Shown here: positions 1-11,489 of the stretch, piece by piece
Layout: the number at the start of each line of letters is the position of its first letter
How positions within the stretch are numbered: the stretch's first letter is position 1
From: an uncultured Shinella sp.
GTDB taxonomy: Bacteria > Pseudomonadota > Alphaproteobacteria > Rhizobiales > Rhizobiaceae
Direction: 5' to 3'
DNA length: 11,489 bases
NCBI GenBank assembly: GCA_946886325.1
Contig: CAMPIK010000027.1
Coordinates: forward strand, 1-11,489
Position numbers and translations under genes: made by a program
Notes under the pieces: generated by a model
Databases searched by the model: none
Seen by the model: the letters and a program-made list of their open reading frames with translations, nothing else
What the model was told of the DNA's origin: nothing

Positions 1-1063
1 TTTCGGCCAGAGGCGTATCGGCAAGGATGCCGATGATGGCTTCGGCGATATCGAGAGGATCGAGACTTGTAACTGCTCCAGCGCCGGCGAGGGTTACTTC
101 GGGGAAATGGCAAGCCTCGGTAATGACCACCGGCGTACCGGTGGCGAGGGCCTCGGTGATCGCAATGCTGAAACCCTCCTGCCGGCTTGGCAGACAAAAA
201 CAAGCGGCGGAGACCAGGGCCTGAAGCTTGGTTTCGCCGTATAGCGGGCCGACCATGTAGACTCGCCATTCGAGCCCGAGCTGCCGTACGAGGTCGCGGA
301 AATCGTCTTCCGCCCCTCCGTCCGGCCCTGCCACGATCAGATCGACGTCGGGGCATTTCCCCGCGACGACCTTGAACGCGCTTGCCAGAAGGTCGAGCCC
401 TTTCTTGTAGTGCAGCCGCGACAGGAAGAGCACGAAGCGCCGGTCTGAGGGCAGGCCGATCAGGCTGGCGAAGTCCTGGGCGGACGGCAGATGCTCGAAC
501 TCCTCGACGAAAATCCCGTTCGGAATGATTTCGGCGGGCGCTTTGAGGCCAAGTGGCCGCATGAGGGCGACCTCGTCGCTGTTCAGTGCATGAATGAACG
601 CCGCATTGTCGAGCATCCGGCGGCAGCCGAGCGCCAGCGCCAGCCGCTTCTTCCGGGACTTCTGTGCGAGGCTCCAGATATCGAGCATTCCAGCAGGACA
701 GACGCAATATGACACGTCGTTTCGTGCCGCGATTGTCGCTGCGCAGACCAGGATCGGTTCCCATACGCCGTGCAGGTGCATGTGTTGGGCGTCAGCAAGA
801 ACCCGCGCCAGCAAGGCACGTGCCTTCAGGCACAAGATGGCCTCCACCATCCCCGCCGGCGGCAGGATGTGCCAGACGATGTTCGCAAAGCCGGGGATCA
901 TTCCTCCCAGCCGAGAAACCTGGGCGAGAGTCCGGTCATCCGCCTGACTCACGACATGAACGTCATGGCCCAGGCTTGCCTGTGCAGCGGCAAGTCGCAT
1001 GACCACTGCCTGAGGTCCACCTTTATCGGGGTCGATGGACGTGATGACGTGAACGATTTTCAT
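1..1063 (-). CDS. Glycosyltransferase, GT4-like, 3' end cut by window edge
   Basis: This is a GT-B fold sugar transferase, expected to add a sugar from a nucleotide donor to a lipid-linked or growing glycan at the cytoplasmic face of the inner membrane. Reading leftward from the ATG at 1061-1063, the frame stays open to the window edge, giving 354 complete codons. The N-terminus holds a glycine-rich acceptor loop (DKGGPQAVV, residues 13-21). Further on come HLHGVWEP (96-103), PNGIF (181-185), the donor-domain strand LSRLHYKKGLD (214-224), and the retaining-transferase block EGFSIAITEALATGTPVVIT (296-315), with its two glutamates E296 and E304 seven residues apart. GT4 enzymes usually run 360-420 residues, so only the C-terminal helix is probably missing. 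The start overlaps the stop of the next upstream gene as ATGA, and no strong Shine-Dalgarno is visible, which suggests translational coupling. The sugar and acceptor cannot be told from sequence. Confidence 0.9.
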   Translation of the reverse strand, partial: MKIVHVITSIDPDKGGPQAVVMRLAAAQASLGHDVHVVSQADDRTLAQVSRLGGMIPGFANIVWHILPPAGMVEAILCLKARALLARVLADAQHMHLHGVWEPILVCAATIAARNDVSYCVCPAGMLDIWSLAQKSRKKRLALALGCRRMLDNAAFIHALNSDEVALMRPLGLKAPAEIIPNGIFVEEFEHLPSAQDFASLIGLPSDRRFVLFLSRLHYKKGLDLLASAFKVVAGKCPDVDLIVAGPDGGAEDDFRDLVRQLGLEWRVYMVGPLYGETKLQALVSAACFCLPSRQEGFSIAITEALATGTPVVITEACHFPEVTLAGAGAVTSLDPLDIAEAIIGILADTPLAE

Positions 1064-2301
1064 CGGCCGGACCCGTGCTGCGCGTGAACTCTGGAAAGGA
1101 CGGCGAGAAGGCGGGCGCCATATTTGTCGACCGTGTGCTCCTGCGCGGCAAGCCGGGCGTTTGCCGACATCGCCGCCCGCACATCCTCGTTTTCTGCAAG
1201 GTGACGCACGGCATCGGCAATCGCCTGGGGATCGCGTGGCGGCACGATAAAGCCTTCGATACCATCGCGCACCACGCTACCGGTGCTGCAGGTCGTGATG
1301 ACCGGAAGGCCGGCTGCGAGTGCCTCGTACACTGCGGTTGCCGATCCCTCGCAGAGAGACGGCAGAAGGAACACGTCCGCCCAGCGGTATTCCTCGGCAA
1401 TGGCCGCGCGCGGGACAATGCCCCGCAGCTCTATCGACCGGGCGATCCGGCGACGAATCCCCGGAGGCAGCCGGTCCGGACCGGCCATCCGCATCCGGAC
1501 GGCGGTGCCGAGCCGTTCGGCAGCCTCGAGCACATAAGGGGAGCCTTTTCGAAGGCCTATTTCGCCAACTGTCAGAATTCGCAGCGGCCCGGGCATGCGA
1601 TGGGTGGGGGCAAGACGGCCCTCGGCATCGACTCCGTACGGCACGACGACGCAACGGTCTGCCGAGCCGCCTTCTGCAACGACATGGTCGCGGACAAACG
1701 GGGACGGGCAGACAATGCAATCCGCCAGCGCCCATTCGGCGCGCTCTCGGGCCGCAAATGTCCCGGCATGGGGGTTCGGCCGCGGGAGACCGGCCCAGTC
1801 CGGAAAGCGGCGCATTTCTTCCGAAAGAAGGCCTTCCACGATGTCTCGCGGGGCAATCATCTGCTCGACGGCGATCCACATGCCTTGCCGCTTGGCAACG
1901 CGCATCTGTTCGAGCGCGTCGCCGCTATAGGCATAAAGACCCGCCGCGTCGTGGAAGCCTCGGCTGGCGACAAGTTCTGAGAACCGGCTTCCGGCCCAGA
2001 CAGCATGCGAGGCCTCTTCTGCTGCATCCTGGATGCGCAGGCGCCGAAGAGCGGAGCGGACGCCGAAGAGCGGAAAGTCCGTGATCATTTTCGATGGAAT
2101 GCCGCTCGGAACCCGCCCGACAAGCCGCTGCACGGGCCGCGGCAACATCGCCTGGGGCATTTTTCGGAGAAGGGCTGGCCAGCTCTTGGTGCCGCAAATG
2201 TCGGTGAAGAAGTGCCGGAGCCGGCCTTCCTTTGCGAGAATTCGGGCGACGGCATAGTGCATGCGGGCACCAAGCTGACTGACGACGACCGTATCGTTCA
2301 T
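1060..2301 (-). CDS. Glycosyltransferase, GT4-like (413 aa)
   Basis: This is a predicted retaining GT-B glycosyltransferase, probably one step in assembling a surface polysaccharide repeat unit. The N-terminal acceptor domain is poorly recognisable beyond VVVSQLGARMHYAVARIL (residues 5-22). The C-terminal donor domain is clear: VPYGVD (220-225), VGEIGLRKGSPYVLEA (245-260), a WADVFLLPS strand (307-315), and the nucleotide-sugar binding block starting CEGSATAVYEALAAGLPVIT (317-336), in which E318 and E326 match the family's E-x7-E pair. DGIEGFIVPPRD (346-357) is the usual following loop. The length is normal for GT4. It is the middle gene of three leftward transferases. Its ATG overlaps the upstream stop as ATGA, and its own TGA overlaps the downstream ATG in the same way, a sign of a coupled operon. 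The donor sugar is unknown; GDP-fucose from the adjacent gmd/fcl pair is a contextual guess. Confidence 0.92.
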   Translation of the reverse strand: MNDTVVVSQLGARMHYAVARILAKEGRLRHFFTDICGTKSWPALLRKMPQAMLPRPVQRLVGRVPSGIPSKMITDFPLFGVRSALRRLRIQDAAEEASHAVWAGSRFSELVASRGFHDAAGLYAYSGDALEQMRVAKRQGMWIAVEQMIAPRDIVEGLLSEEMRRFPDWAGLPRPNPHAGTFAARERAEWALADCIVCPSPFVRDHVVAEGGSADRCVVVPYGVDAEGRLAPTHRMPGPLRILTVGEIGLRKGSPYVLEAAERLGTAVRMRMAGPDRLPPGIRRRIARSIELRGIVPRAAIAEEYRWADVFLLPSLCEGSATAVYEALAAGLPVITTCSTGSVVRDGIEGFIVPPRDPQAIADAVRHLAENEDVRAAMSANARLAAQEHTVDKYGARLLAVLSRVHAQHGSGR

Positions 2302-3560
2302 GATGGCCCCTGTTCCAGGATCACGGCGCCGACGGGAACGCGATCCGTTTCATCAAAGTCGCGAAGGAGGGTTTTCCACGTAACGAGTGCATGGTCATAG
2401 CCATAGTCGGCTTCGAGCGTCTTCCTCGCTGACGCTCCCATGTCTGCTACCCGTTCGGGCGAAGCAGCGAGATCGGTGATTGTGCGGGCAAGACCTTCGG
2501 CATCGCCGATACTGAAATTCACGCCGCAGCCGCGGGCATTGATGACATTGGCGACACTGCCCTTTGCGTCACCGATGAAAAGCGCCGGCCGGCCGGCGGC
2601 AAGGATGCCGTAGAATTTGCTCGGAATGATGCAATGTTCCAGGCGCGGAAGCAGCGAAACGACATGCAGGTCCGGCACACCAAGGCTGTCGGCGATGTAT
2701 TCCACCGGCTGCAGCGGCTTGAAATCGACATTGGCAAGACGCCGTTCCCGCACGGCGTCCAATACGGATGCAAGCTTGTAGCCGCCTCCGATCATGAGAA
2801 AACGAATGTCGAGGCGATCCCTCAACAGCGTCGCCGCGTCAATCAGGGTGGCGAATTCATGGGCCCGACCGAAATTGCCGGAATAGCCGACCACGAACTT
2901 GCCTTCGTAACCCCACGACATGCGGAGTCGATTCTTTTCCCTGGGAATGGGGAGGATCTCGGCTGCATCGGACCAGTGATGCAACACCCGGATACGATCC
3001 GCCGGCAAGCCGCGCGCCAACAGGTAGTCCGCCATTCGCTCCGTCGGGCAAATGGACAGTCGCGCACGGGCAATCGATCGATCGCGGAGCCAGACGGCCA
3101 ACCGCGCGAGTAAAGGAGCCTTGGCGAAAAGACCGAGTTCGATGGCCGTTTCGGGGAAGAGATCCATGATCCAGTTGACCATCACCCCGCCGCGCAGTCG
3201 GATAGCCAACGCGCAGCCGAGTGAGATCAGAGGGGGATCGGTGCAGACAACGACCACATCGTCACGCCTGACATTCCGGGCGAGCCAGGCAAAGGCCGCA
3301 GCATGGAAGGACAGGTAGTCAACGGCCCGGCCCGGCAGGCTGCCGCGCCCGAAGCGCGACGTGGAAAGCCGGACAATCTCTACGCCGGAACAGTTTTCCC
3401 GCGCGGCGAGCGTTGCGTCGGTGCGGTCATGGCAGGTGCGGCTGGCGACGATGGCGACATCGCCGCCCTGCCGCGCCAACCCGAAAGCAAGCGCGGACAC
3501 CATGCGGCTGGTTGCCGACTGGTCCGGATGGCCATAGCGATTGACGAATATCGTTCTCAT
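2298..3560 (-). CDS. Glycosyltransferase, GT4, WbuB/WcaI-like (420 aa)
   Basis: This is a predicted GT4 glycosyltransferase resembling the WbuB/WcaI group, which includes fucosamine and colanic-acid transferases. Family-like signatures in order are DQSATSRMVSALAFGLA near the N-terminus (residues 13-29), CTDPPLISLG (106-115), MDLFPETAIELG (132-143), LHHWSD (193-198), the donor-domain entry VVGYSGNFGRAHEF (223-236), and the late block SKFYGILAAGRPALFIG (314-330). The segment around 104-128 is hydrophobic and could touch the membrane. It is the first gene of the leftward transferase operon, so the operon promoter should lie upstream of 3560 in the 3561-3856 spacer. A purine-rich GGGGCGG sequence sits shortly before the ATG. 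Its stop overlaps the next gene's start as ATGA. Assignment to the glycosyltransferase class is strong; the specific sugar is inferred only from general similarity. Confidence 0.92.
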   Translation of the reverse strand: MRTIFVNRYGHPDQSATSRMVSALAFGLARQGGDVAIVASRTCHDRTDATLAARENCSGVEIVRLSTSRFGRGSLPGRAVDYLSFHAAAFAWLARNVRRDDVVVVCTDPPLISLGCALAIRLRGGVMVNWIMDLFPETAIELGLFAKAPLLARLAVWLRDRSIARARLSICPTERMADYLLARGLPADRIRVLHHWSDAAEILPIPREKNRLRMSWGYEGKFVVGYSGNFGRAHEFATLIDAATLLRDRLDIRFLMIGGGYKLASVLDAVRERRLANVDFKPLQPVEYIADSLGVPDLHVVSLLPRLEHCIIPSKFYGILAAGRPALFIGDAKGSVANVINARGCGVNFSIGDAEGLARTITDLAASPERVADMGASARKTLEADYGYDHALVTWKTLLRDFDETDRVPVGAVILEQGPS

Positions 3561-3856
3561 GAAGCCGCCCCGTTGCTCTGCGTGCCGGATACGATCCTGC
3601 CAGTACGCGTCCGGGCGGCAAGTTCTCCAAAGGCGCTAGCGGGGCATGACCGATCGCAACCGGTCTACGCCTTCCGGACGGCGCACATAGACCTTCGTTG
3701 TGCATGTCCGCGACTATGCCCAGATACGGAGGCTCGAAACGACTGATCGCCCCCAAACGACCACCTTGTCGCTGGGAACGCTTCATCGCTAACTCTCGGA
3801 CAACGGGTCGCGACTGGTCGTGACTGCCGCCTTCTTCCGAGAGAGCTAATTCCGCG
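3561..3856. other. Divergent intergenic spacer, transferase operon / gmd
   Basis: This 296-bp non-coding stretch separates the leftward transferase operon from the rightward gmd-fcl pair and must hold, or pass on, the promoters for both. Short frames run through it but none has a convincing start, ribosome site or recognisable product. A candidate rightward promoter lies at 3766-3794. I saw no good leftward -35/-10 pair and no nod-box-like block. A GAGAG tract at 3841-3845 sits 11 bases before the gmd ATG as a weak ribosome binding site. Confidence 0.6.
3766..3794 (+). promoter_or_regulatory. Candidate housekeeping promoter for gmd-fcl
   Basis: TTGTCG at 3766-3771 is followed by a 17-base spacer and CTAACT at 3789-3794. 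This resembles the alphaproteobacterial sigma-70 pattern CTTGAC-N17-CTATAT, with partial matches in both boxes. Transcription would start near 3801, leaving a leader of about 56 bases before the gmd ATG. This is pattern matching by eye in GC-rich DNA and has no independent support. Confidence 0.3.
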
Positions 3857-4927
3857 ATGGCTGAAAAAACTGCCTTGATTGTCGGCGTGACGGGCCAGGA
3901 CGGCTCCTATCTGACCGAGTTGCTCCTGTCCAAGGGATATCATGTACACGGACTGAAGCGCCGCTCGTCGTCCTTCAACACGGGCCGCGTCGATCACCTG
4001 TATGTCGACCCGCGATCGCCCGGCGTGCGGTTTCAAATGCACTTCGGCGACCTGACGGATGGGACGAATCTCTGCCGGGTTATTCAGGAAGTCAGCCCGG
4101 ACGAGATTTACAATCTTGGCGCACAGAGCCATGTGCAGGTCAGTTTCGACTCGCCGGAATACACCGCGAACACGGACGCGCTCGGCACGCTGCGTCTGCT
4201 GGAGGCCATGCGGCTCCTGAAGATGGGCAAGCAATGCCGCTTCTACCAGGCTTCAACCTCGGAATTGTTCGGCGGTATCATGGACACGCCGCAGCGCGAA
4301 AGCACCCCTTTTCACCCGCGCAGCCCCTATGCGGTCGCCAAGCTCTATGCCTATTGGACGACGGTCAACTATCGGGAAGCCTATGGTTTCCATGCCTCGA
4401 ACGGCATCCTCTTCAATCACGAGAGCCCGCGGCGGGGAGAGACCTTCGTCACCAGGAAGATCACCCGCGCGGTTGCGGCGATCGAGTGGGGATTGCAGGA
4501 AAAGCTCTACCTCGGCAACCTCGACGCCCGGCGCGACTGGGGACATGCCCGCGATTATGTCGAGGGCATGTGGCGGATCGTCCAGCAGGACAACCCGGAT
4601 GACTACGTGCTGGCGACCGGCGAGGCACATACCGTCCGGGAATTCGTCGAATGTGCCTTCGGTATCGTGGGAAAGACCATCGAGTGGAGCGGAGCGGGCG
4701 TTGAAGAGGTCGGCTACGACCGCGTGAGCGGGAACCCCCTCATCGAGATCGACCCACGTTATTTCCGTCCTGCAGAAGTCGACATTCTGCTCGGCGACGC
4801 AAGCAAGGCAAGGGATCGGCTCGGCTGGCGAAATACAGCGACATTCGAGGATCTCGTTTCGGAAATGGTGGATTCGGATTTGCGCCGGATTGTCAGGGAG
4901 GAAGGTCGCAATGATCTCCATGGGTGA
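3857..4927 (+). CDS. gmd: GDP-mannose 4,6-dehydratase
   Basis: Gmd converts GDP-D-mannose to GDP-4-keto-6-deoxy-D-mannose in the cytoplasm, the first committed step to GDP-L-fucose and also to GDP-rhamnose or GDP-perosamine. It is an extended short-chain dehydrogenase. The NADP-binding loop GVTGQDG is at residues 10-16, and [11 protein letters not shown] (34-44) is the family's cofactor and tetramer-contact segment. The catalytic set is T134 and E136 in [10 protein letters not shown] with the Y158-x3-K162 pair in [27 protein letters not shown] and [17 protein letters not shown] are strong Gmd signatures. At 356 residues it is close to the E. coli enzyme. The first ATG places the Rossmann loop correctly. 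The reductase gene overlaps its 3' end by 17 bases, which fixes the pathway branch to fucose. Rhizobial Nod-factor homologues are called noeL, but nothing nearby indicates a nod locus. Confidence 0.97.
4897..4901 (+). promoter_or_regulatory. Ribosome binding site deciding the fcl start
   Basis: GGAGG at 4897-4901, within the longer AGGGAGGAAGG tract, lies 9 bases before the ATG at 4911. It therefore supports that ATG over the in-frame TTG at 4890 and the ATG at 4920. It lies inside the gmd coding sequence. Confidence 0.75.
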
Positions 4928-5900
4928 CAAGGCCACGGTGTCCTATGACCTGCGCAGAAAGCGCGTATGGGTCGCCGGGCACAATGGCATGGTGGGCTCG
5001 GCGTTGCTGCGCCGTCTCGAACAGGAACGTTGCGATATCCAGACCGTATCGCATGCGGAAGTCGATCTGACGCGACAAGCGGATACGGAAAGCTGGATGA
5101 GAAAGGCGCGACCGGAAGCGATATTCATCGCCGCGGCGCGGGTCGGCGGTATCGCTGCCAATGCCCGCTATCCCGCGGAATTCCTCTCGGAGAACGTGCT
5201 CATCCTGCTCAATATCATGAAGACCGCATCGGATCTCGGCGTCGAGAAGCTCATCTGCCTGGGGTCGAGCTGCATCTATCCGAAACATGCAGAGCAGCCC
5301 ATTTGCGAGGATGCGTTGCTGACGGGCAGCCTGGAGCCGACAAATGAGGCCTATGCGATCGCCAAGATCGCCGGCATCAAGCTTGCTGCCGCCTATGCCG
5401 AACAATACGGTCGCCGCTTCATCTCTGTCATGCCGACGAATCTCTATGGTCAGAACGACAATTTCGACCTGGACCACTCGCACGTCATACCCGCGCTGAT
5501 ACGCAAGATGCACGACGCCAGGGTCTCCCATCGCGATAGTGTCGTGGTCTGGGGGACAGGGACGCCACGGCGCGAATTCCTGCATGTCGATGACCTGGCG
5601 GATGCCTGCGTGTTCCTGATGAAAGGATACGAAAGCCCGAAACCGATCAATATCGGGTCCGGCGAGGAGATCACTATCGGGCAACTCGCTTTTCTGATTG
5701 CCGATGTCGTCGATTTCCGTGGCCACATTGTCTTCGATGCCTTCAAGCCGGATGGCACGCCTCGGAAGCTTCTGGACAGTTCGCGCCTTCGCGCCCTCGG
5801 CTGGTCGCACAAGATCGAACTTCGCTCAGGCATTCAGGAACTCTATGAGCGGTGGATGAACAGTGACCGCTGCCTCAACGCGTATCAGGAACATTCCTAG
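4911..5900 (+). CDS. fcl: GDP-L-fucose synthase (epimerase/reductase)
   Basis: This enzyme, also known as WcaG, performs the 3,5-epimerisation and NADPH-dependent 4-reduction of GDP-4-keto-6-deoxymannose to give GDP-L-fucose. With the start at 4911 it has 329 residues, near the 321 of the E. coli enzyme. The cofactor loop GHNGMVG is at residues 23-29, [10 protein letters not shown] at 75-84, the SSCIYPK motif at 119-125 carries the catalytic serine and a conserved cysteine (C121), and the Y148-x3-K152 pair is in [11 protein letters not shown]. Then come [12 protein letters not shown] with a conserved histidine in SHV (H191), and [17 protein letters not shown] (214-230). It overlaps gmd by 17 bases. 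The last codon runs straight into the terminal repeat of a RIME1-like element, which supplies the TAG stop, yet the protein is full length. Rhizobial Nod-factor homologues are called nolK; the setting here favours a polysaccharide role. Confidence 0.96.
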
Positions 5901-6003
5901 AGCATTTCCAGCCGAAGCGAAGTCGCTTCGGCGTCGGATAATGCGGCAGAAACAAAACACGAGAGCATCTGCGGTGAGCCGGATTTCACCGGAGATGCTC
6001 TAG
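5897..6003. repeat. RIME1-like two-palindrome intergenic element
   Basis: This 107-bp unit is bounded by 13-base imperfect inverted ends: CTAGAGCATTTCC at 5897-5909, and the reverse complement of 5991-6003, CTAGAGCATCTCC (12 of 13 match). Inside are two hairpins. The first has 10-base perfect arms at 5911-5920 and 5923-5932. The second has 16-base arms at 5962-5977 and 5986-6001 with one mismatch. The AGAGCAT core appears three times (5899-5905 and 5962-5968, plus inverted at 5995-6001). Size and the two-palindrome plan fit the RIME1 family of Rhizobium-specific intergenic mosaic elements; the family assignment is from memory of its architecture, not an alignment. It fills the whole gap between two convergent genes and provides both of their stop codons. 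Confidence 0.75.
5962..6001 (-). terminator. Possible terminator for the leftward sensor gene
   Basis: A 16-base-pair stem with one mismatch and an 8-base loop begins at the stop codon of the leftward gene. On the leftward strand it is followed by a T-rich stretch (GTGTTTTGTTTCTG, complement of 5948-5961). This resembles an intrinsic terminator, though the T run is interrupted. The hairpin is part of the RIME1-like element, so terminator function may be secondary. For rightward transcription from fcl neither hairpin has a following T run. Confidence 0.45.
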
Positions 6004-9000
6004 TCGCCGCTTTCTGCGGCCAGCACCAGCCTTGCCAATGCCGGCAGGGAACCCACTTCCGTTCGCTTCATGATGGCCGCTCGATGCGCTTCGACGGTGC
6101 GCTGGCTCAGGCCAAGATCCATTGCGATGATCTTGCTGGGCTGGCCGGTCAGCACCCGGTCCATTATCTCGCGCTGGCGTTCCGTCAAGCGCGCCAGCCG
6201 CGCCTGCGCGTCACGCTGCCGGAGCCCCTGCTTGCTGCTGTCCTGACTACGCTCCAGTGCCTGGGAAACACGCGACAGCAGTTCGGAGGGGCCGATCGGC
6301 TTCTCGATGAAGTCCGAAGCTCCCGCCTTCATTGCCAGGACGGCCGTCGCGATGTCGCCGGCCCCCGTGATCATGATGACGGGCAGAGTTAGCCCCCTGC
6401 CGCGGAGCGTTTGCAGGACGCCAAGGCCGCTCATTCCCGGCAACCGGACGTCCATCACCAGGCATCCGGGTTGCTGCGCATTGAAATTGGCGAGAAATAC
6501 CTCTCCGTCGGAAAAGGTCTGTACCCGGTGTCCGGCTGCCTCGAAGGTTGCCCGGAGAGCCTCGCGCGTTGGCAAGTCGTCGTCGACGATAGTGATCGCC
6601 GATGCGTCTGACAATGCTGGCCTCGGATCGTCTGGCTGCTGCTCGTCAAGCGGTATCGCATTCGAGCGCAGCACGAACTGGATTGCCTCCAGAAGTTCGC
6701 CAAGGCTGACGGGCTTCGGCATGTGAAGGCAGTCCTCGTCCGAGAGGACTTGCTGCGTTTCTGCCGAGATATCTCCTGTGAGAACGATCGCTGGAACCTG
6801 ACGACCGAGGATCGAACGCAACTGCTTGGTGACATCGATGCCACTCATCTCGTTCGGCAGATTGTAGTCGGCCAGAATAAGCGACGGGACCACCTTTTTG
6901 CTTGAGACGAGCTCGATCGCGGCGGAACCGTCGTTTGCGGCAAATACGGTGTGATGTTCATCGCGAAGCGCGATGTCGATCAGGCTACGGACCTTCTGGT
7001 CGTCTTCGATGACGAGGATCGTACCGTGCATCTGCGGTGCCTCGGTGCTGGCTGCGGTCGATCTCGGTTCCGGTTGCGGCTCTTCCCTTCCGAGCGCCAG
7101 CTGGATCGTGAACACCGAGCCCTTGCCCGAAACGGAGCGGACGTTGATCTTGTGGCCAAGCAGCAGGCCAAGACGCTTGACGATGGACAGGCCGAGACCG
7201 AGGCCAAGTTCCACTTCGGTCCCATCGTTGGCGGCCTGATGATACTCGTCGAAAATGGATTGGAGTTGGTGGGACGGAATGCCGATACCGCTGTCCCAGA
7301 CTTCTATGGACAGCGTATCCCTGTGACGTCGGCAACCGAGCAGGATCTTGCCTTTCCTGGTGTATTTGACTGCATTCGCCAGCAGGTTGCGGATCATCTG
7401 TTCAAGGAGGCGAGGATCGGTTCGCACCAGCAAGGACGATGGCACGAAGCGAAGGGAAATGCCCTTCTCCATGGCGCTGTAGCTGAACTCGTCGTTCAGC
7501 CGCTGCAGCACTTCATTGACCCTGCATGTCGCGATGCGTGGATAAACGGTACCTGCTTCGATCTGGTTGATATCGAGAAGGGCGTTGAGCATGCCGGACA
7601 TCGAATGGAGTGTATCCCGAAAGCTCCTGACGAACTTCCTGGCCTTTTCCCCTTCAACCGTCTTCTCCAGCAATCCCTGGAGAAGGACCAACGACTGCAG
7701 AGGTTGGCGCAGGTCATGGCTTGCCGCGGCGAGAAACCGCGATTTCGCAGCATTGGCGCGTTCGGCAGCGCGCTTCGCCCTGCCGAGCGCTTCATGCGCA
7801 TGGTGCTGTGTCGTCACATCTGCAAATGTGATGACGACGCCTTCCGTTCCGCCCTCTTGCGTCCGGTAGGGCATGACGCGGCGCAGGAACCAGTTGCCGC
7901 CTGCTGTTCTGACTTCCCGCTCCTTGTTGACGCTTCCCTTCAAGACCGCGGTGGCATCAGCGAGCAGTGCCGAGTCCGGCACACGAGAATTGAGGTCCGT
8001 CAGCGGGCGGCCGATATCTCCCAGGATAGCGTTGAAGATCGAGCGCGTTGCCGGGTTGAAGAAGCGGATATTCAGGTCGGGATCGAGGAAGATCGTGGCG
8101 ACGTCGGTGCTGTACAATACGTTTTCAAGATCATTTGCCGTCGCGCGCTGGCGCTCCAGCGCTTCCTGGAGCTGGGAATTCAGCGCTGTCAGCTCCTCGT
8201 TTAGAGACTGGAGTTCTTCCTTGGAGGTAAGGAGTTCCTCGTTGGCGGATTGGTATTCCTCATTTAGCGAAAGGGTTTCCGCATTGACCGCCTTTTGCTC
8301 CTCTGCCGTATTCTCCAGATCGCGGATCGCCGCATGCAGTTCCGTTCGGGTCGCAGAAAGTTCGCGTGCCAGCGCGTGCGAGTGCTCGTCGTGAACGAGG
8401 CTCGACGGGTCGCTCAATTGAGGTGGCTTCTCTGTGTCGAGGAAGCTCACAAGAAGGAGGTCCTCGCCGTCGATGGAAACCGGCTGCGCGACAATCTCGT
8501 AGTGCAACAGCATGTCGTCGGCGTCGTGATAGAACCCGGTCGAAACGGTGCGAACTTTCTCCTGAAAGGCGCGGTGGAGCGCGGAACGCAGCTTCGTGTG
8601 AATGCTGCGCGGTGTAACCGTAAAGATATCCTGCGTCGGATAGCCCGGTGCAATGCGCAGATAGCGCTGCACCGGTCCGAGCGAATAGAGATATTCATAC
8701 TTCCTGTTGATCAGCACCGTGGCTGGAGCATAGTTGTCGATGATCGTGCGGCGGCACAGCTCGGCGAGTGCGGCTTGCCGATTCGGGACGGGGTCTCGCT
8801 GCATGGGAGTCCTGACATTGTCTGACGCGTTGCTGGCAAAGACGAAGCGTCCACGTTGCCCTTTGCGGCGGAATATCCGTGAAGGCTTGTCGAGCACATC
8901 GAATCGGCTGCTATCGGGGCCAACGGTTTCCGTATTGCCGAGCAGCAGGATGCCGTTTTCATTGAGTGCGAAATGGCAAAGCGAAATGACGGTCGCCTGC

Positions 9001-10310
9001 GCTTCCGGCCCGAAATAGATCAGCAGGTTACGGCAGGAGATGAAATCGATGTTGGAGAAAGGTGGATCGCTGAGAATGTTCTGGACAGCAAAGATGATGG
9101 CAGATCGAAGCTGCGAAACAACGCGGTAGCCGCTCCCATCCGATATGAAGAAGCGCTGCAGCCGCTGCGGAGAAACCTCCGTCTCGATCGTCTTGGGATA
9201 GATGCCATCCCGGGCGAAGGCGACAGCGCCTTCGTCGGCGTCAGAGGCGAATATCTGCATCTGGATATCGCGCCCGGCTTCCGAAATGCATTCTTGCACG
9301 ATCATCGCCAGCGAGTACGCTTCTTCGCCGGTGCTGCATCCGGCAACCCACAATCGCAAAGGCTGTCCGGACGGGTGGTGCTTCACGAGCGCAGGCACAA
9401 TCTGCGTTCGCAACCGTTCGAAAACGTCCGGATCACGGAAGAAGCTCGTCACGTTTATCAGTATGTCGGTTGCGAGATGTGACAGTTCGAGCGGATTCTT
9501 GACCAGTTTTTCAAGGTAACGCGCCTTGTCCGAGGAGGCGATTCCGGCCATCGCCATGCGCCGTTCCAGCCGCCGATGTAGCGTTCCCTGCTTGTAGAGG
9601 GAGAAATCCTTGCCGGTCGATTCGCGCATCATGGCTACGATCGTATCCATGATGGCCCTGTTTGAAGGCGGCCCAACGTCCTTGCCGCCCTTTGCGGAAT
9701 AGGGCCTTTGCAGTGCTTCGCCGATCGCGCCCAAAGGCATCACGTGACTGGCCATTCCGGAATCGATCGCGCTGTTCGGCATCCCGTCGTAGCCCGCTTC
9801 ATTCGGGTCTTGGACAAAGACCCTGCCCCCGGCCTCGCGAATGAAGCGAATGCCGATGCTCCCGTCTGTACCGGTACCGGAAAGAACTATTGCCGTGGCG
9901 CGCGGGCCATATTCCATGGCAAGATTGTGCAGAAGGAAATCAAACGGCATACGCATCCCGTGGCGAACGGGAGGTAAGGTCAACCGTATCGTATCGGCTT
10001 CCACGGCAATGTAGCGCCCGGGAGGAATGATGAAGAGATGCTCCGGCTCCAGTCGCTGACCATCTTCAGCCTGGACCACTGTCATCTTGGTGTGGTTGGA
10101 CAGGAGCTCCGCCAGCATGCTCTCGTGAACCGGATCGAGATGCTGAACGAGAACAAACGCGTTCCCGCCGCCTGACGGCATTGCCTCAAGAAGAATGCGG
10201 CAAGCTTCGAGTCCGCCCGCCGATGCACCGATTGCGACAATATTGGTTATTGGCCTGCCGGAGTTCTTGTCAAACGCTGACGCACGCGACGGAGGTCGGG
10301 TTGAACTCAT
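6000..10310 (-). CDS. CheB-CheR-PAS-PAS-histidine kinase-REC-REC-LuxR/FixJ fusion (1436 aa)
   Basis: This is a giant signalling protein. The CheB methylesterase (about 20-200) keeps its triad: S30 in IGASAGG, H57 in VQHLDP, D149 in GTGTDG, but lacks CheB's usual receiver. CheR methyltransferase (about 218-485) has GTLHRRLERRM, the SAM loop WVAGCSTGEEAYSLA (321-335) and FISCRNLLIYF. A PAS-like region (about 516-625), a coiled coil (about 645-730, NEEL/KEEL repeats) and a second PAS-like region (730-835) follow. The kinase has H865 in SHDLRQPL, N box NLLANAVKYT (975-984), DSGIGIP, and LGLGLGLSIVK. Receiver 1 has D1148, T1178, K1199; receiver 2 has D1287, T1315, K1337. A FixJ-type helix-turn-helix ends it (about 1373-1432). 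No transmembrane segment is evident, so it is probably cytosolic. The ATG at 10310 is chosen over an in-frame TTG at 10412; its ribosome site is weak. Ligand and targets are unknown. Confidence 0.93.
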   Translation of the reverse strand: MSSTRPPSRASAFDKNSGRPITNIVAIGASAGGLEACRILLEAMPSGGGNAFVLVQHLDPVHESMLAELLSNHTKMTVVQAEDGQRLEPEHLFIIPPGRYIAVEADTIRLTLPPVRHGMRMPFDFLLHNLAMEYGPRATAIVLSGTGTDGSIGIRFIREAGGRVFVQDPNEAGYDGMPNSAIDSGMASHVMPLGAIGEALQRPYSAKGGKDVGPPSNRAIMDTIVAMMRESTGKDFSLYKQGTLHRRLERRMAMAGIASSDKARYLEKLVKNPLELSHLATDILINVTSFFRDPDVFERLRTQIVPALVKHHPSGQPLRLWVAGCSTGEEAYSLAMIVQECISEAGRDIQMQIFASDADEGAVAFARDGIYPKTIETEVSPQRLQRFFISDGSGYRVVSQLRSAIIFAVQNILSDPPFSNIDFISCRNLLIYFGPEAQATVISLCHFALNENGILLLGNTETVGPDSSRFDVLDKPSRIFRRKGQRGRFVFASNASDNVRTPMQRDPVPNRQAALAELCRRTIIDNYAPATVLINRKYEYLYSLGPVQRYLRIAPGYPTQDIFTVTPRSIHTKLRSALHRAFQEKVRTVSTGFYHDADDMLLHYEIVAQPVSIDGEDLLLVSFLDTEKPPQLSDPSSLVHDEHSHALARELSATRTELHAAIRDLENTAEEQKAVNAETLSLNEEYQSANEELLTSKEELQSLNEELTALNSQLQEALERQRATANDLENVLYSTDVATIFLDPDLNIRFFNPATRSIFNAILGDIGRPLTDLNSRVPDSALLADATAVLKGSVNKEREVRTAGGNWFLRRVMPYRTQEGGTEGVVITFADVTTQHHAHEALGRAKRAAERANAAKSRFLAAASHDLRQPLQSLVLLQGLLEKTVEGEKARKFVRSFRDTLHSMSGMLNALLDINQIEAGTVYPRIATCRVNEVLQRLNDEFSYSAMEKGISLRFVPSSLLVRTDPRLLEQMIRNLLANAVKYTRKGKILLGCRRHRDTLSIEVWDSGIGIPSHQLQSIFDEYHQAANDGTEVELGLGLGLSIVKRLGLLLGHKINVRSVSGKGSVFTIQLALGREEPQPEPRSTAASTEAPQMHGTILVIEDDQKVRSLIDIALRDEHHTVFAANDGSAAIELVSSKKVVPSLILADYNLPNEMSGIDVTKQLRSILGRQVPAIVLTGDISAETQQVLSDEDCLHMPKPVSLGELLEAIQFVLRSNAIPLDEQQPDDPRPALSDASAITIVDDDLPTREALRATFEAAGHRVQTFSDGEVFLANFNAQQPGCLVMDVRLPGMSGLGVLQTLRGRGLTLPVIMITGAGDIATAVLAMKAGASDFIEKPIGPSELLSRVSQALERSQDSSKQGLRQRDAQARLARLTERQREIMDRVLTGQPSKIIAMDLGLSQRTVEAHRAAIMKRTEVGSLPALARLVLAAESGD

Positions 10311-10387
10311 AGATGCGATCTCAAGGACTCTCCAAACATTTTGAGCATTCAATAGGTGTCTATGGTGCTGCCACTGAGTATAGGCAG

Positions 10388-10406
10388 AACCGATACAACC
10401 GGATAC
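10388..10406. repeat. Tandem direct repeat, possible operator half-sites
   Basis: AACCGATAC (10388-10396) is followed at once by AACCGGATAC (10397-10406), the same motif with one inserted G. The pair lies between two divergent regulator genes that both encode LuxR-type DNA-binding domains, so a binding-site role is possible. Two short copies can also occur by chance. Confidence 0.3.
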
Positions 10407-10563
10407 CCTCAACGTACGTATTTTCCGAGTCTATTTTCAGTGTGTCTTTTTGATATAGATTTATGATTGCAGCAGGTATCGCCGCAAGGAATGGCTATCC
10501 ATAAGTATGGCCTATTTCAACATTGTGTCTTTATGAAGAACTTTCTTGAAAAAGAACATTCAT

Positions 10564-10568
10564 GGAGG
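10564..10568 (+). promoter_or_regulatory. Ribosome binding site deciding the regulator start
   Basis: GGAGG at 10564-10568 lies 9 bases before a GTG at 10578-10580, the same spacing as at fcl in this window. It abuts the in-frame ATG at 10569 with no spacer, which makes that ATG unlikely. No comparable site precedes the in-frame TTG at 10467 or the ATGs at 10491, 10533 and 10689. Confidence 0.55.
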
Positions 10569-10577
10569 ATGTATGCC

Positions 10578-11327
10578 GTGGTTCAGGTCGGTGAAACAGG
10601 TGCGTTGAACTATCGTGGAAAACAAAACGGTATAGCTTCGTCGTCAATTTTCCCGCCGGTCAGCCGGACGACAGGTGCTTTCGCAAGTATGAGAGTCCTC
10701 GATATAATCGATGAGCGCGCACTGGATCGTGAGTGCCTATCTCAAAGCCTGGTATCGCATGGAATTGACATGACGATCGTGCTTTTCAACTCCGTTGAAA
10801 CCTGGATATCCAAATATGCAGAGGCATCCAGCGGCGTATTGATCAACATCGGCAGCCACGATTGTACCGAACCCCAGATCAAGAACAGCATCCAAACGCT
10901 CGTCTCCCGGTTTCCCGGTCTTCCAATTATCATCCTGGCCGACAATCATGATCTGCGTCAGGTTCTCACAGCTCTGGAACTTGGCGTTAGGGGCTTCATT
11001 CCTTCTGCCGTTGGAATTGCCGTTTGCGTGAAGGCAATCTCACTTGCTCTCTCGGGAGGCATCTTCATTTCCACTGAAAGCCTGCCGGAACTGCGTCGGC
11101 TGATGTCCGTTGCCGATCAACAGGAGCGTAAACGCGCGGAAATCTTCACCTGCCGGGAAGAAGACGTCATCGCCATGCTCAAACTTGGCAAAGCCAACAA
11201 GATCATTGCCTACGAACTCGATCTGCGAGAAAGCACCGTAAAGGTTCACATCAGAAACATCATGAAGAAACTCAATGTCAAAAATCGGACGCAGGTGATC
11301 TTCAGGTTAAATGAACTTTTCGAATAA
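10578..11327 (+). CDS. LuxR-family regulator with degenerate receiver domain (249 aa)
   Basis: This is a predicted DNA-binding transcription factor of the NarL/FixJ architecture. An unassigned leader (residues 1-37) is followed by a receiver-like fold from M38 (RVLDIIDERALDREC) to about 165, then a LuxR/GerE helix-turn-helix at about 187-247 with FTCREEDVIAMLKLGKANKIIA and STVKVHIRNIMKKLNVKNRTQ. The receiver keeps the fold pattern but not the chemistry: the phospho-acceptor position reads L88-I89-N90-I91, the Thr/Ser position is A121 (IIILAD), and the conserved Lys position is S143 (GFIPS). It is therefore probably not controlled by phosphorylation. The start is the GTG with the well-placed GGAGG; an ATG at 10689 would give a 212-residue protein beginning at the receiver. 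It is divergent from the giant sensor kinase, which suggests mutual regulation. The target genes are unknown. Confidence 0.85.
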   Translation: MVQVGETGALNYRGKQNGIASSSIFPPVSRTTGAFASMRVLDIIDERALDRECLSQSLVSHGIDMTIVLFNSVETWISKYAEASSGVLINIGSHDCTEPQIKNSIQTLVSRFPGLPIIILADNHDLRQVLTALELGVRGFIPSAVGIAVCVKAISLALSGGIFISTESLPELRRLMSVADQQERKRAEIFTCREEDVIAMLKLGKANKIIAYELDLRESTVKVHIRNIMKKLNVKNRTQVIFRLNELFE

Positions 11328-11489
11328 CATAAATTGCGATTTAAGAACGAAAAGCTCTTTTATTTTGAAAATTATTGCCTCGTTCTTCGCTGAACTGGTA
11401 GCGCCAATCTCGCTCATGATACGAGTACACATGCAGGTGGCTTGGTAAAACACGCAACGCTGATGATTGGAATTCCGGCGGACATGTGG
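11328..11489. other. Downstream intergenic tail, no gene seen
   Basis: These 162 bases after the regulator's TAA carry no frame that I can support. The first part (11328-11375) is AT-rich. An 8-base inverted repeat AAGAACGA / TCGTTCTT (11343-11350 and 11380-11387) spans a 29-base T-rich loop. It could be a weak transcript-end structure or a binding site. The remainder to the window edge shows nothing recognisable. Confidence 0.4.
11343..11387. repeat. Inverted repeat downstream of the regulator gene
   Basis: AAGAACGA at 11343-11350 is matched by TCGTTCTT at 11380-11387, a perfect 8-base inverted repeat 15 bases past the stop codon. The long loop contains CTCTTTTATTTT. The loop is too long, and the trailing sequence not T-rich enough, for a confident intrinsic terminator. 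Confidence 0.3.

Follow-up and report, generated by a model that had tools for sequence, protein, structure and literature searches.

Contig CAMPIK010000027.1 from an uncultured Shinella sp. (GenBank assembly GCA_946886325.1) was analysed over positions 1 to 11,489, and we refer to this whole stretch of 11,489 nucleotides as the window. It contains a gene for a single-chain sensor kinase, in which CheB methylesterase and CheR methyltransferase domains are followed by two PAS domains with a long coiled coil between them, a histidine kinase, two receivers and a DNA-binding domain. The coil carries a regular array of Glu-Glu pairs which, judged from sequence, resembles the methylation sites of chemoreceptors. 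The best explanation is probably that the kinase adds methyl groups to its own coil and removes them again, thereby setting its own gain. We favour self-methylation because of the pattern of the Glu pairs, their erosion upon loss of CheR, and the occurrence of relatives in genomes in which no chemoreceptor was detected. The architecture itself is already common; what is new here is the evidence on the methylation target.

Domain organisation of the kinase

The gene and its domains are as follows (all listed Pfam domains exceed their curated cut-offs):

6000..10310, reverse strand: whole kinase gene, 1436 codons plus stop (open reading frame from ATG to stop; relatives aligned end to end)
9711..10238, reverse strand: CheB methylesterase domain, residues 25-200, with S30, H57 and D149 (Pfam CheB_methylest, PF01339, 3.2e-51, 173.9 bits; PDB CheB 1chd, 5.5e-23)
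8886..9644, reverse strand: CheR N-terminal and S-adenosylmethionine (SAM)-binding domains, residues 223-475 (Pfam CheR_N, PF03705, 223-259, and CheR, PF01739, 286-475, 1.9e-48; PDB CheR 5ftw, 3.5e-31)
8436..8780, reverse strand: first PAS domain (PAS1), residues 511-625, without a Pfam match (AlphaFold2 model with predicted local distance difference test score, pLDDT, of 88.5; Foldseek matches to PAS/LOV structures in the PDB, best E 5.8e-05)
8112..8384, reverse strand: single long helix or coiled coil, residues 643-733, continuing into the second PAS domain (AlphaFold2 model of residues 1-850)
8193..8303, reverse strand: heptad array of Glx-Glx pairs (Glx, Glu or Gln), proposed methyl-accepting sites (670-671, 684-685, 691-692, 698-699, 705-706)
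7812..8129, reverse strand: second PAS domain (PAS2), residues 728-833 (Pfam PAS_10, 6.5e-25)
7092..7748, reverse strand: HisKA (with H865) and HATPase_c, residues 855-1073 (Pfam HisKA 855-920, HATPase_c 965-1073)
6666..7025, reverse strand: receiver 1, residues about 1096-1215 (borders set by hand), with the invariant D1148 (Pfam Response_reg, which matches in two stretches)
6267..6596, reverse strand: receiver 2, residues 1239-1348, with the invariant D1287 (the better of the two Response_reg stretches)
6027..6191, reverse strand: GerE/LuxR helix-turn-helix, residues 1374-1428 (Pfam GerE, 9.3e-14)

The original prediction, made from the letters of the window, described this gene as one uninterrupted frame of 1436 codons with intact catalytic and phospho-acceptor residues. 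The frame is indeed open from ATG to stop, and there is no sign of a hidden frameshift, since relatives of 72-75% identity can be aligned over the whole chain. A Pfam search recovered the CheB, CheR, PAS, HisKA, HATPase_c, Response_reg and GerE domains that had been named. In an alignment of 121 sequences, the kinase itself included, D149, H865, D1148 and D1287 never vary, and conservation of S30 and of H57 is at least 90%. The CheB domain thus has its Ser-His-Asp triad; it begins at residue 25, and Pfam places no receiver, a trait of classical CheB, ahead of it. The predicted methyltransferase is borne out by the CheR_N match and by the SAM-binding domain with its GCSTGEE loop, and the HisKA phospho-acceptor His, HATPase_c and C-terminal receiver are those of a hybrid histidine kinase.

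Both predicted PAS-like regions were recovered, PAS2 by Pfam and PAS1 by structure. The PAS1 model has 65 PDB matches at E <= 1e-3 in Foldseek, with template modelling (TM) scores mostly about 0.5-0.6, and the names among the 50 matches listed are mostly PAS, LOV, heme-PAS or FixL. Helix 643-733 runs unbroken into PAS2 in the model of residues 1-850, for which overall confidence is low (pLDDT 69.8, predicted TM score 0.31). MCPsignal (PF00015) is absent from the Pfam matches of the kinase, which is therefore not itself a methyl-accepting chemotaxis protein (MCP). An Rfam search gave no match at the gathering score, and profile libraries of defence systems and phage families gave weak or domain-level matches only.

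A Glu-pair array on the coiled coil

Glu-Glu pairs begin at residues 670, 684, 691, 698 and 705, in a strict seven-residue period in which 677-678 is Ala-Glu in this protein. Across the 121 aligned rows, E684, E691 and E699 are invariant, while E685, E692, E698, E705 and E706 deviate in just one or two rows each. The pairs are flanked by Ser, Thr or Ala, mostly at position -3 and almost always at position +4. Methylation sites of chemoreceptors follow a consensus of Glx pairs with heptad spacing and small flanking residues, and the array on the kinase resembles them in each of these features, suggesting that it may work like a methyl-accepting helix.

P0001 has four consecutive Glx-Glx pairs spaced by exactly seven residues. 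When the letters of the coil were shuffled 100,000 times, a run of at least four arose in 65 shuffles, and among 611 other mechanically called open reading frames of at least 300 residues from the fetched loci, none reached even a run of three. By comparison, 306 of 310 CheR-bearing relatives (some of them near-duplicates) have a run of at least four, the four exceptions being P0123, in which CheR is truncated, P0007, P0069 and L096. A second set of 118 CheR-bearing proteins has no exception, with run lengths of 5-8 throughout.

Loss of CheR and the fate of the Glu pairs

We found the pairs to be eroded or deleted in seven of nine credible CheR-loss lineages (7/8 to 6/8 if P0165 and L062, which are joined with weak tree support, represent one loss). 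In a tree of the kinase part with 29 rows, from which L126, L067 and P0010 (without the anchor motif) were left out, six label changes are required, of which well-supported branches force at least four. A further 46 CheR-less database proteins were excluded from the counts because their starts are doubtful; the majority start within PAS1, shortly ahead of it or shortly ahead of the coil, and have the appearance of broken gene models.

Losses of differing extent are represented. At the same locus in Shinella sumterensis MEC087 (L003) and Shinella H4-D48 (L004), CheR and, separately, the coil are gone, the latter from between the two PAS domains, which are retained together with the downstream part. 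CheB has decayed differently in the two: L003 has lost D149 and kept S30 and H57, and L004 has lost S30 and kept H57 and D149. The database proteins P0124-P0127 are like them, with CheR and coil absent and the PAS domains and downstream part present. P0122 has lost CheB, CheR and most of the coil, and keeps PAS1. In P0123, the truncated CheR is accompanied by a shorter coil with no pairs. L126, from another subfamily with an HWE-type kinase, has lost CheR, its CheB is badly decayed, and its coil has collapsed to a run of one. L062 has an eroded array with a run of three, and the coil of P0201 differs from that of its near, full-length relative P0205 by E699 to Ala and one Leu to Phe.

The clearest example is L067 (the same as P0241/P0242), which lacks CheR and has a run of one on a coil of unshortened length. 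Four of its seven pairs are broken, each by one altered residue, as against 3 of 826 in 118 CheR-bearing relatives; counted by letter, non-Glx residues occupy 4 of 14 pair positions as against 3 of 1652. The CheB and PAS2 domains of P0241 are as near to P0243 as are those of CheR-bearing relatives.

Two side observations concern losses of this kind. By hand count the coil of P0123 is missing 14 residues, exactly two heptads, as if the register had to stay. In S. sumterensis UPHL-collab-3 (L174, 17763-20921), the CheR-less ortholog region is annotated as two genes, and further decay is possible.

Chemoreceptors in genomes carrying the family

The original prediction proposed the kinase's own coiled coil as a possible target on the grounds that no chemoreceptor gene is present in the window. 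The target is the one best supported by the Glu pairs, their erosion and the chemoreceptor-free genomes described below; the reason given for it fails, as chemoreceptor genes lie elsewhere in such genomes. The Shinella genomes each gave at least 20-32 matches to chemoreceptors, with lower bounds of 23, 27 and 32 for the three in which the gene is full-length.

We searched for MCPsignal in 104 genomes, of which 100 have a coil or PAS1 match and four are further Shinella. At E <= 1e-8 it is present in 89 and found in none of the other 15, in which a relaxed search likewise gave nothing over the cut-off. A search for CheW found none in 14 of these 15, G328 being the genome with CheW. Setting aside G328, G249 (in which the member is cut by a contig end) and G144 (CheR-less), there are 12 genomes with a complete CheB-CheR-PAS1-coil protein, no MCPsignal over the cut-off and no CheW detected. 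In the 12 proteins the catalytic motifs are mostly intact, with Asn in place of the CheB Asp in G614, and the Glu pairs are present. Two of these genomes, G666 and G668, look alike; G070, G186 and G369 each consist of one contig about as large as the genome. Because neither MCPsignal over the cut-off nor CheW was found, chemoreceptors are unlikely to be the target in those 12 genomes.

Alternative explanations

Several observations weigh against self-methylation. The run statistic was picked once the sequences had been seen, and L096, P0007 and P0069 possess CheR yet have runs of only 2-3. P0165, without CheR, retains a coil with a run of six, and P0217, in which another PAS domain replaces CheB-CheR, has a run of four. 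Among the 46 CheR-less proteins excluded above, 44 have a run of at least four, which would be counter-evidence if they are genuine. In P0241/P0242 the coil deviates from the consensus at 27 and 26 of 69 off-pair positions, about double the mean of 12.3 in the 118 relatives (maximum 24; nearest relative 21); because this exceeds all 118 relatives, their coil is somewhat relaxed as a whole. Weak MCPsignal matches below the cut-off occur in 8 of the 15 genomes (best E 5.6e-4), whose completeness is not stated, and for this very protein a target in trans is possible because Shinella has many chemoreceptors. Finally, the joint loss of CheR and coil would be expected of a docking site no less than of a substrate.

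This last point leads to an explanation in which the coil serves the CheB and CheR domains as a platform for docking or dimerisation, their substrate is another protein, and a dock that has become useless decays along with the enzymes. The pattern of joint loss would be the same, and exposed charged residues are able to bind domains. We nevertheless consider docking rather unlikely, since Glx pairs spaced by seven residues with small flanks match the consensus of methyl-accepting helices, since the broken pairs of P0241/P0242 arose by single changes on a coil of preserved length, and since no chemoreceptor substrate was detected in the 12 genomes, where other substrates are still possible.

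Alternatively, the N-terminal half may be under relaxed selection in some lineages, with CheR, CheB and coil eroding independently and their association being coincidental. CheB does erode in Shinella and in L126, the whole gene is absent from Shinella HZN7, P0165 and P0217 keep the coil, and the off-pair positions of P0241/P0242 are unusually diverged. However, Shinella, P0122 and L126 retain PAS1, the domain that separates CheR from the coil, and decay would thus have to skip it; the CheB and PAS2 domains of P0241 are as conserved as in CheR-bearing relatives; and the rise at pair positions (4/14 against 3/1652) far exceeds that at off-pair positions (27/69 against a mean of 12.3/69). Coincidence is thus improbable.

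It is similarly doubtful that the fused enzymes modify chemoreceptors of the cell in trans and that the coil is an ordinary signalling helix: the CheB and CheR domains resemble chemotaxis enzymes, and chemoreceptors abound in Shinella and occur in most genomes searched, but the family persists where neither an MCP signal domain over the cut-off nor CheW was found (the three single-contig genomes included), orthologs that lost CheR lack the coil between their two PAS domains, and a chimeric CheB-CheR gene of Phaeobacter inhibens, possibly a family member, is unchanged in the CtrA-pathway mutants in which chemotaxis genes fell (PMC11974857).

Distribution and relation to known systems

After P0002, which is 99% identical, the nearest named relatives are the Shinella proteins P0003 (75%), L001 and L002. 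The 120 relatives listed range from 53 to 99% identity, and nearly all of these best matches have the same Pfam set including GerE, which P0009 lacks. When the class Alphaproteobacteria was surveyed with the coil, 26 of 289 genomes contained matches, 34 in all. CheR lies in the same frame as the coil in 31 of the 33 coil-bearing loci fetched, and the full order CheB-CheR-PAS1-coil-PAS2-kinase-receiver-receiver-helix-turn-helix occurs in one frame in 8 of the 33; L043 is frameshifted and otherwise shows the remainder of this architecture. The order CheB-CheR-PAS-coil-PAS is common to most surveyed relatives. Within the genus Shinella, the gene occurs in 5 of 21 genomes, three with CheR and coil and two with neither.

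Matches to a PAS1 profile occur in 77 of the 398 Pseudomonadota genomes sampled. Of 96 PAS1 reading frames in 94 loci fetched in addition to three from the earlier survey, 91 have CheR and coil, one is L126, and four that are cut or broken were dropped: L151 and L164 lie at the edges of the fetched sequence, L173 at a contig end, and in L168 the gene is interrupted. In L168 (G314) the interruption of the CheB/CheR fusion seems to fall between PAS1 and the coil, with coil and PAS2 in a reading frame about 630 codons later.

The full architecture is therefore common in Alphaproteobacteria, as the relatives and the survey both show. Rarity is thus not supported. The original prediction had named an order both common and already characterised as a finding that would undo it; the first applies, and for the second the literature searched gave no case. 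In the open-licence literature searched, we found no experimental study of a CheB-CheR-PAS-kinase protein and no mechanism or methylation target for any member. The Rhodospirillum centenum genome paper mentions a chimera of this sort, RC1_3878, possibly a family member, with no function given (PMC2890560).

The kinase has the same Pfam set as the CheB/CheR fusion sensor kinases annotated as 'two-component system CheB/CheR fusion protein'. Many of these end in an HWE-type kinase or a single receiver, whereas this one ends in HisKA, two receivers and a helix-turn-helix. We take KEGG K13924 to be the entry for such fusions. The original prediction of a FixJ-type regulator fused to a hybrid kinase stands as a resemblance and not as family membership. 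Receiver 2 with the helix-turn-helix scores 220.2 bits against FixJ (NCBIfam NF006900, cut-off 255) and, unlike FixJ, is covalently joined to its kinase. The HisKA-HATPase-receiver 1 part scores 348.8 bits against the NahK/ErcS hybrid kinases (NF041832, cut-off 400), to which this kinase adds CheB-CheR-PAS in front and a second receiver and helix-turn-helix behind. It is thus related to both families and a member of neither. The likeness to MCPs with their CheR and CheB may be one of working, in that heptad-spaced Glx-Glx pairs lie on a long coil beside a methylating and demethylating pair of enzymes; here, however, there is no MCP signal domain, enzymes, receptor and kinase form one chain, and the output is DNA binding.

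Locus and upstream region

The neighbouring features are:

3857..5900, forward strand: gmd and GDP-L-fucose synthase genes, convergent with the kinase, of an exopolysaccharide cluster (domain search; named in syntenic records)
10467..11327, forward strand: divergent LuxR-family regulator that probably starts near 10569 and is syntenic in Shinella (Pfam GerE, 5.7e-18)
10415..10432, reverse strand: upstream block AGACTCGGAAAATACGTA (also written AGAYTCGGAAAATACGTA), candidate operator (locus alignment)

The gene neighbourhood has about 77% DNA identity to Shinella megaplasmids, which together with the nearest relatives of the protein assigns the window to a Shinella-like bacterium. In syntenic records the kinase gene sits between gmd/GDP-fucose synthase and the divergent LuxR-family regulator, and the cluster also includes glycosyltransferases, a putative colanic acid acetyltransferase, a tyrosine autokinase, an export protein and a second response-regulator gene. 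Shinella HZN7 (NZ_CP015739.1, L176) keeps the polysaccharide cluster and the LuxR gene, with only about 300 bp in place of the kinase. The exopolysaccharide cluster, which is of the fucose type, is the likeliest output of the kinase, a regulatory link that we infer, as gene position is what supports it.

The block at 10415-10432 is kept in five Shinella-like loci (L001-L004 among them) with one mismatch, at the TACGTA end of L004; the region upstream of the kinase is otherwise variable apart from a few short stretches kept in the five loci. The window contains no second match to the block (0 in 200 shuffles), and three related loci have matches with three mismatches elsewhere.

The extragenic stretch that separates the fucose synthase gene from the convergent kinase gene (window 5897-5999) looks palindromic, and its first 50-59 bases turn up again, at 98%, on other plasmids of Shinella. 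NZ_CP084754.1, recorded as Roseateles sp. XES5 (UNVERIFIED_ORG), contains a Shinella-like version of the locus; the organism is possibly mislabelled.

Proposed mechanism and significance

Under self-methylation, the kinase would be a cytoplasmic sensory system in one protein that adapts in the manner of a receptor. The two PAS domains would sense a cue and act on the kinase via the long helix of a dimer; H865 would be phosphorylated and pass its phosphate to D1148, D1287 or both, and the FixJ-like helix-turn-helix would then alter transcription, most likely that of the surrounding exopolysaccharide cluster. CheR would methylate, and CheB demethylate or deamidate, the Glu-Glu pairs of their own helix, in cis or across the dimer, and the resulting change in coil charge would, as in chemoreceptors, alter kinase gain.

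The self-methylation reading is directly testable in one biochemical experiment, for which the CheR-less Shinella orthologs and the P0241/P0242 lineage provide natural controls. On balance, we lean slightly towards the broader view that a widespread class of kinases self-adapts by chemoreceptor-style methylation, independently of chemotaxis and even in bacteria without chemoreceptors. If so, a single gene would offer a minimal system for studying adaptation, and reversible methylation would be a general means of tuning two-component kinases rather than a speciality of chemoreceptors.

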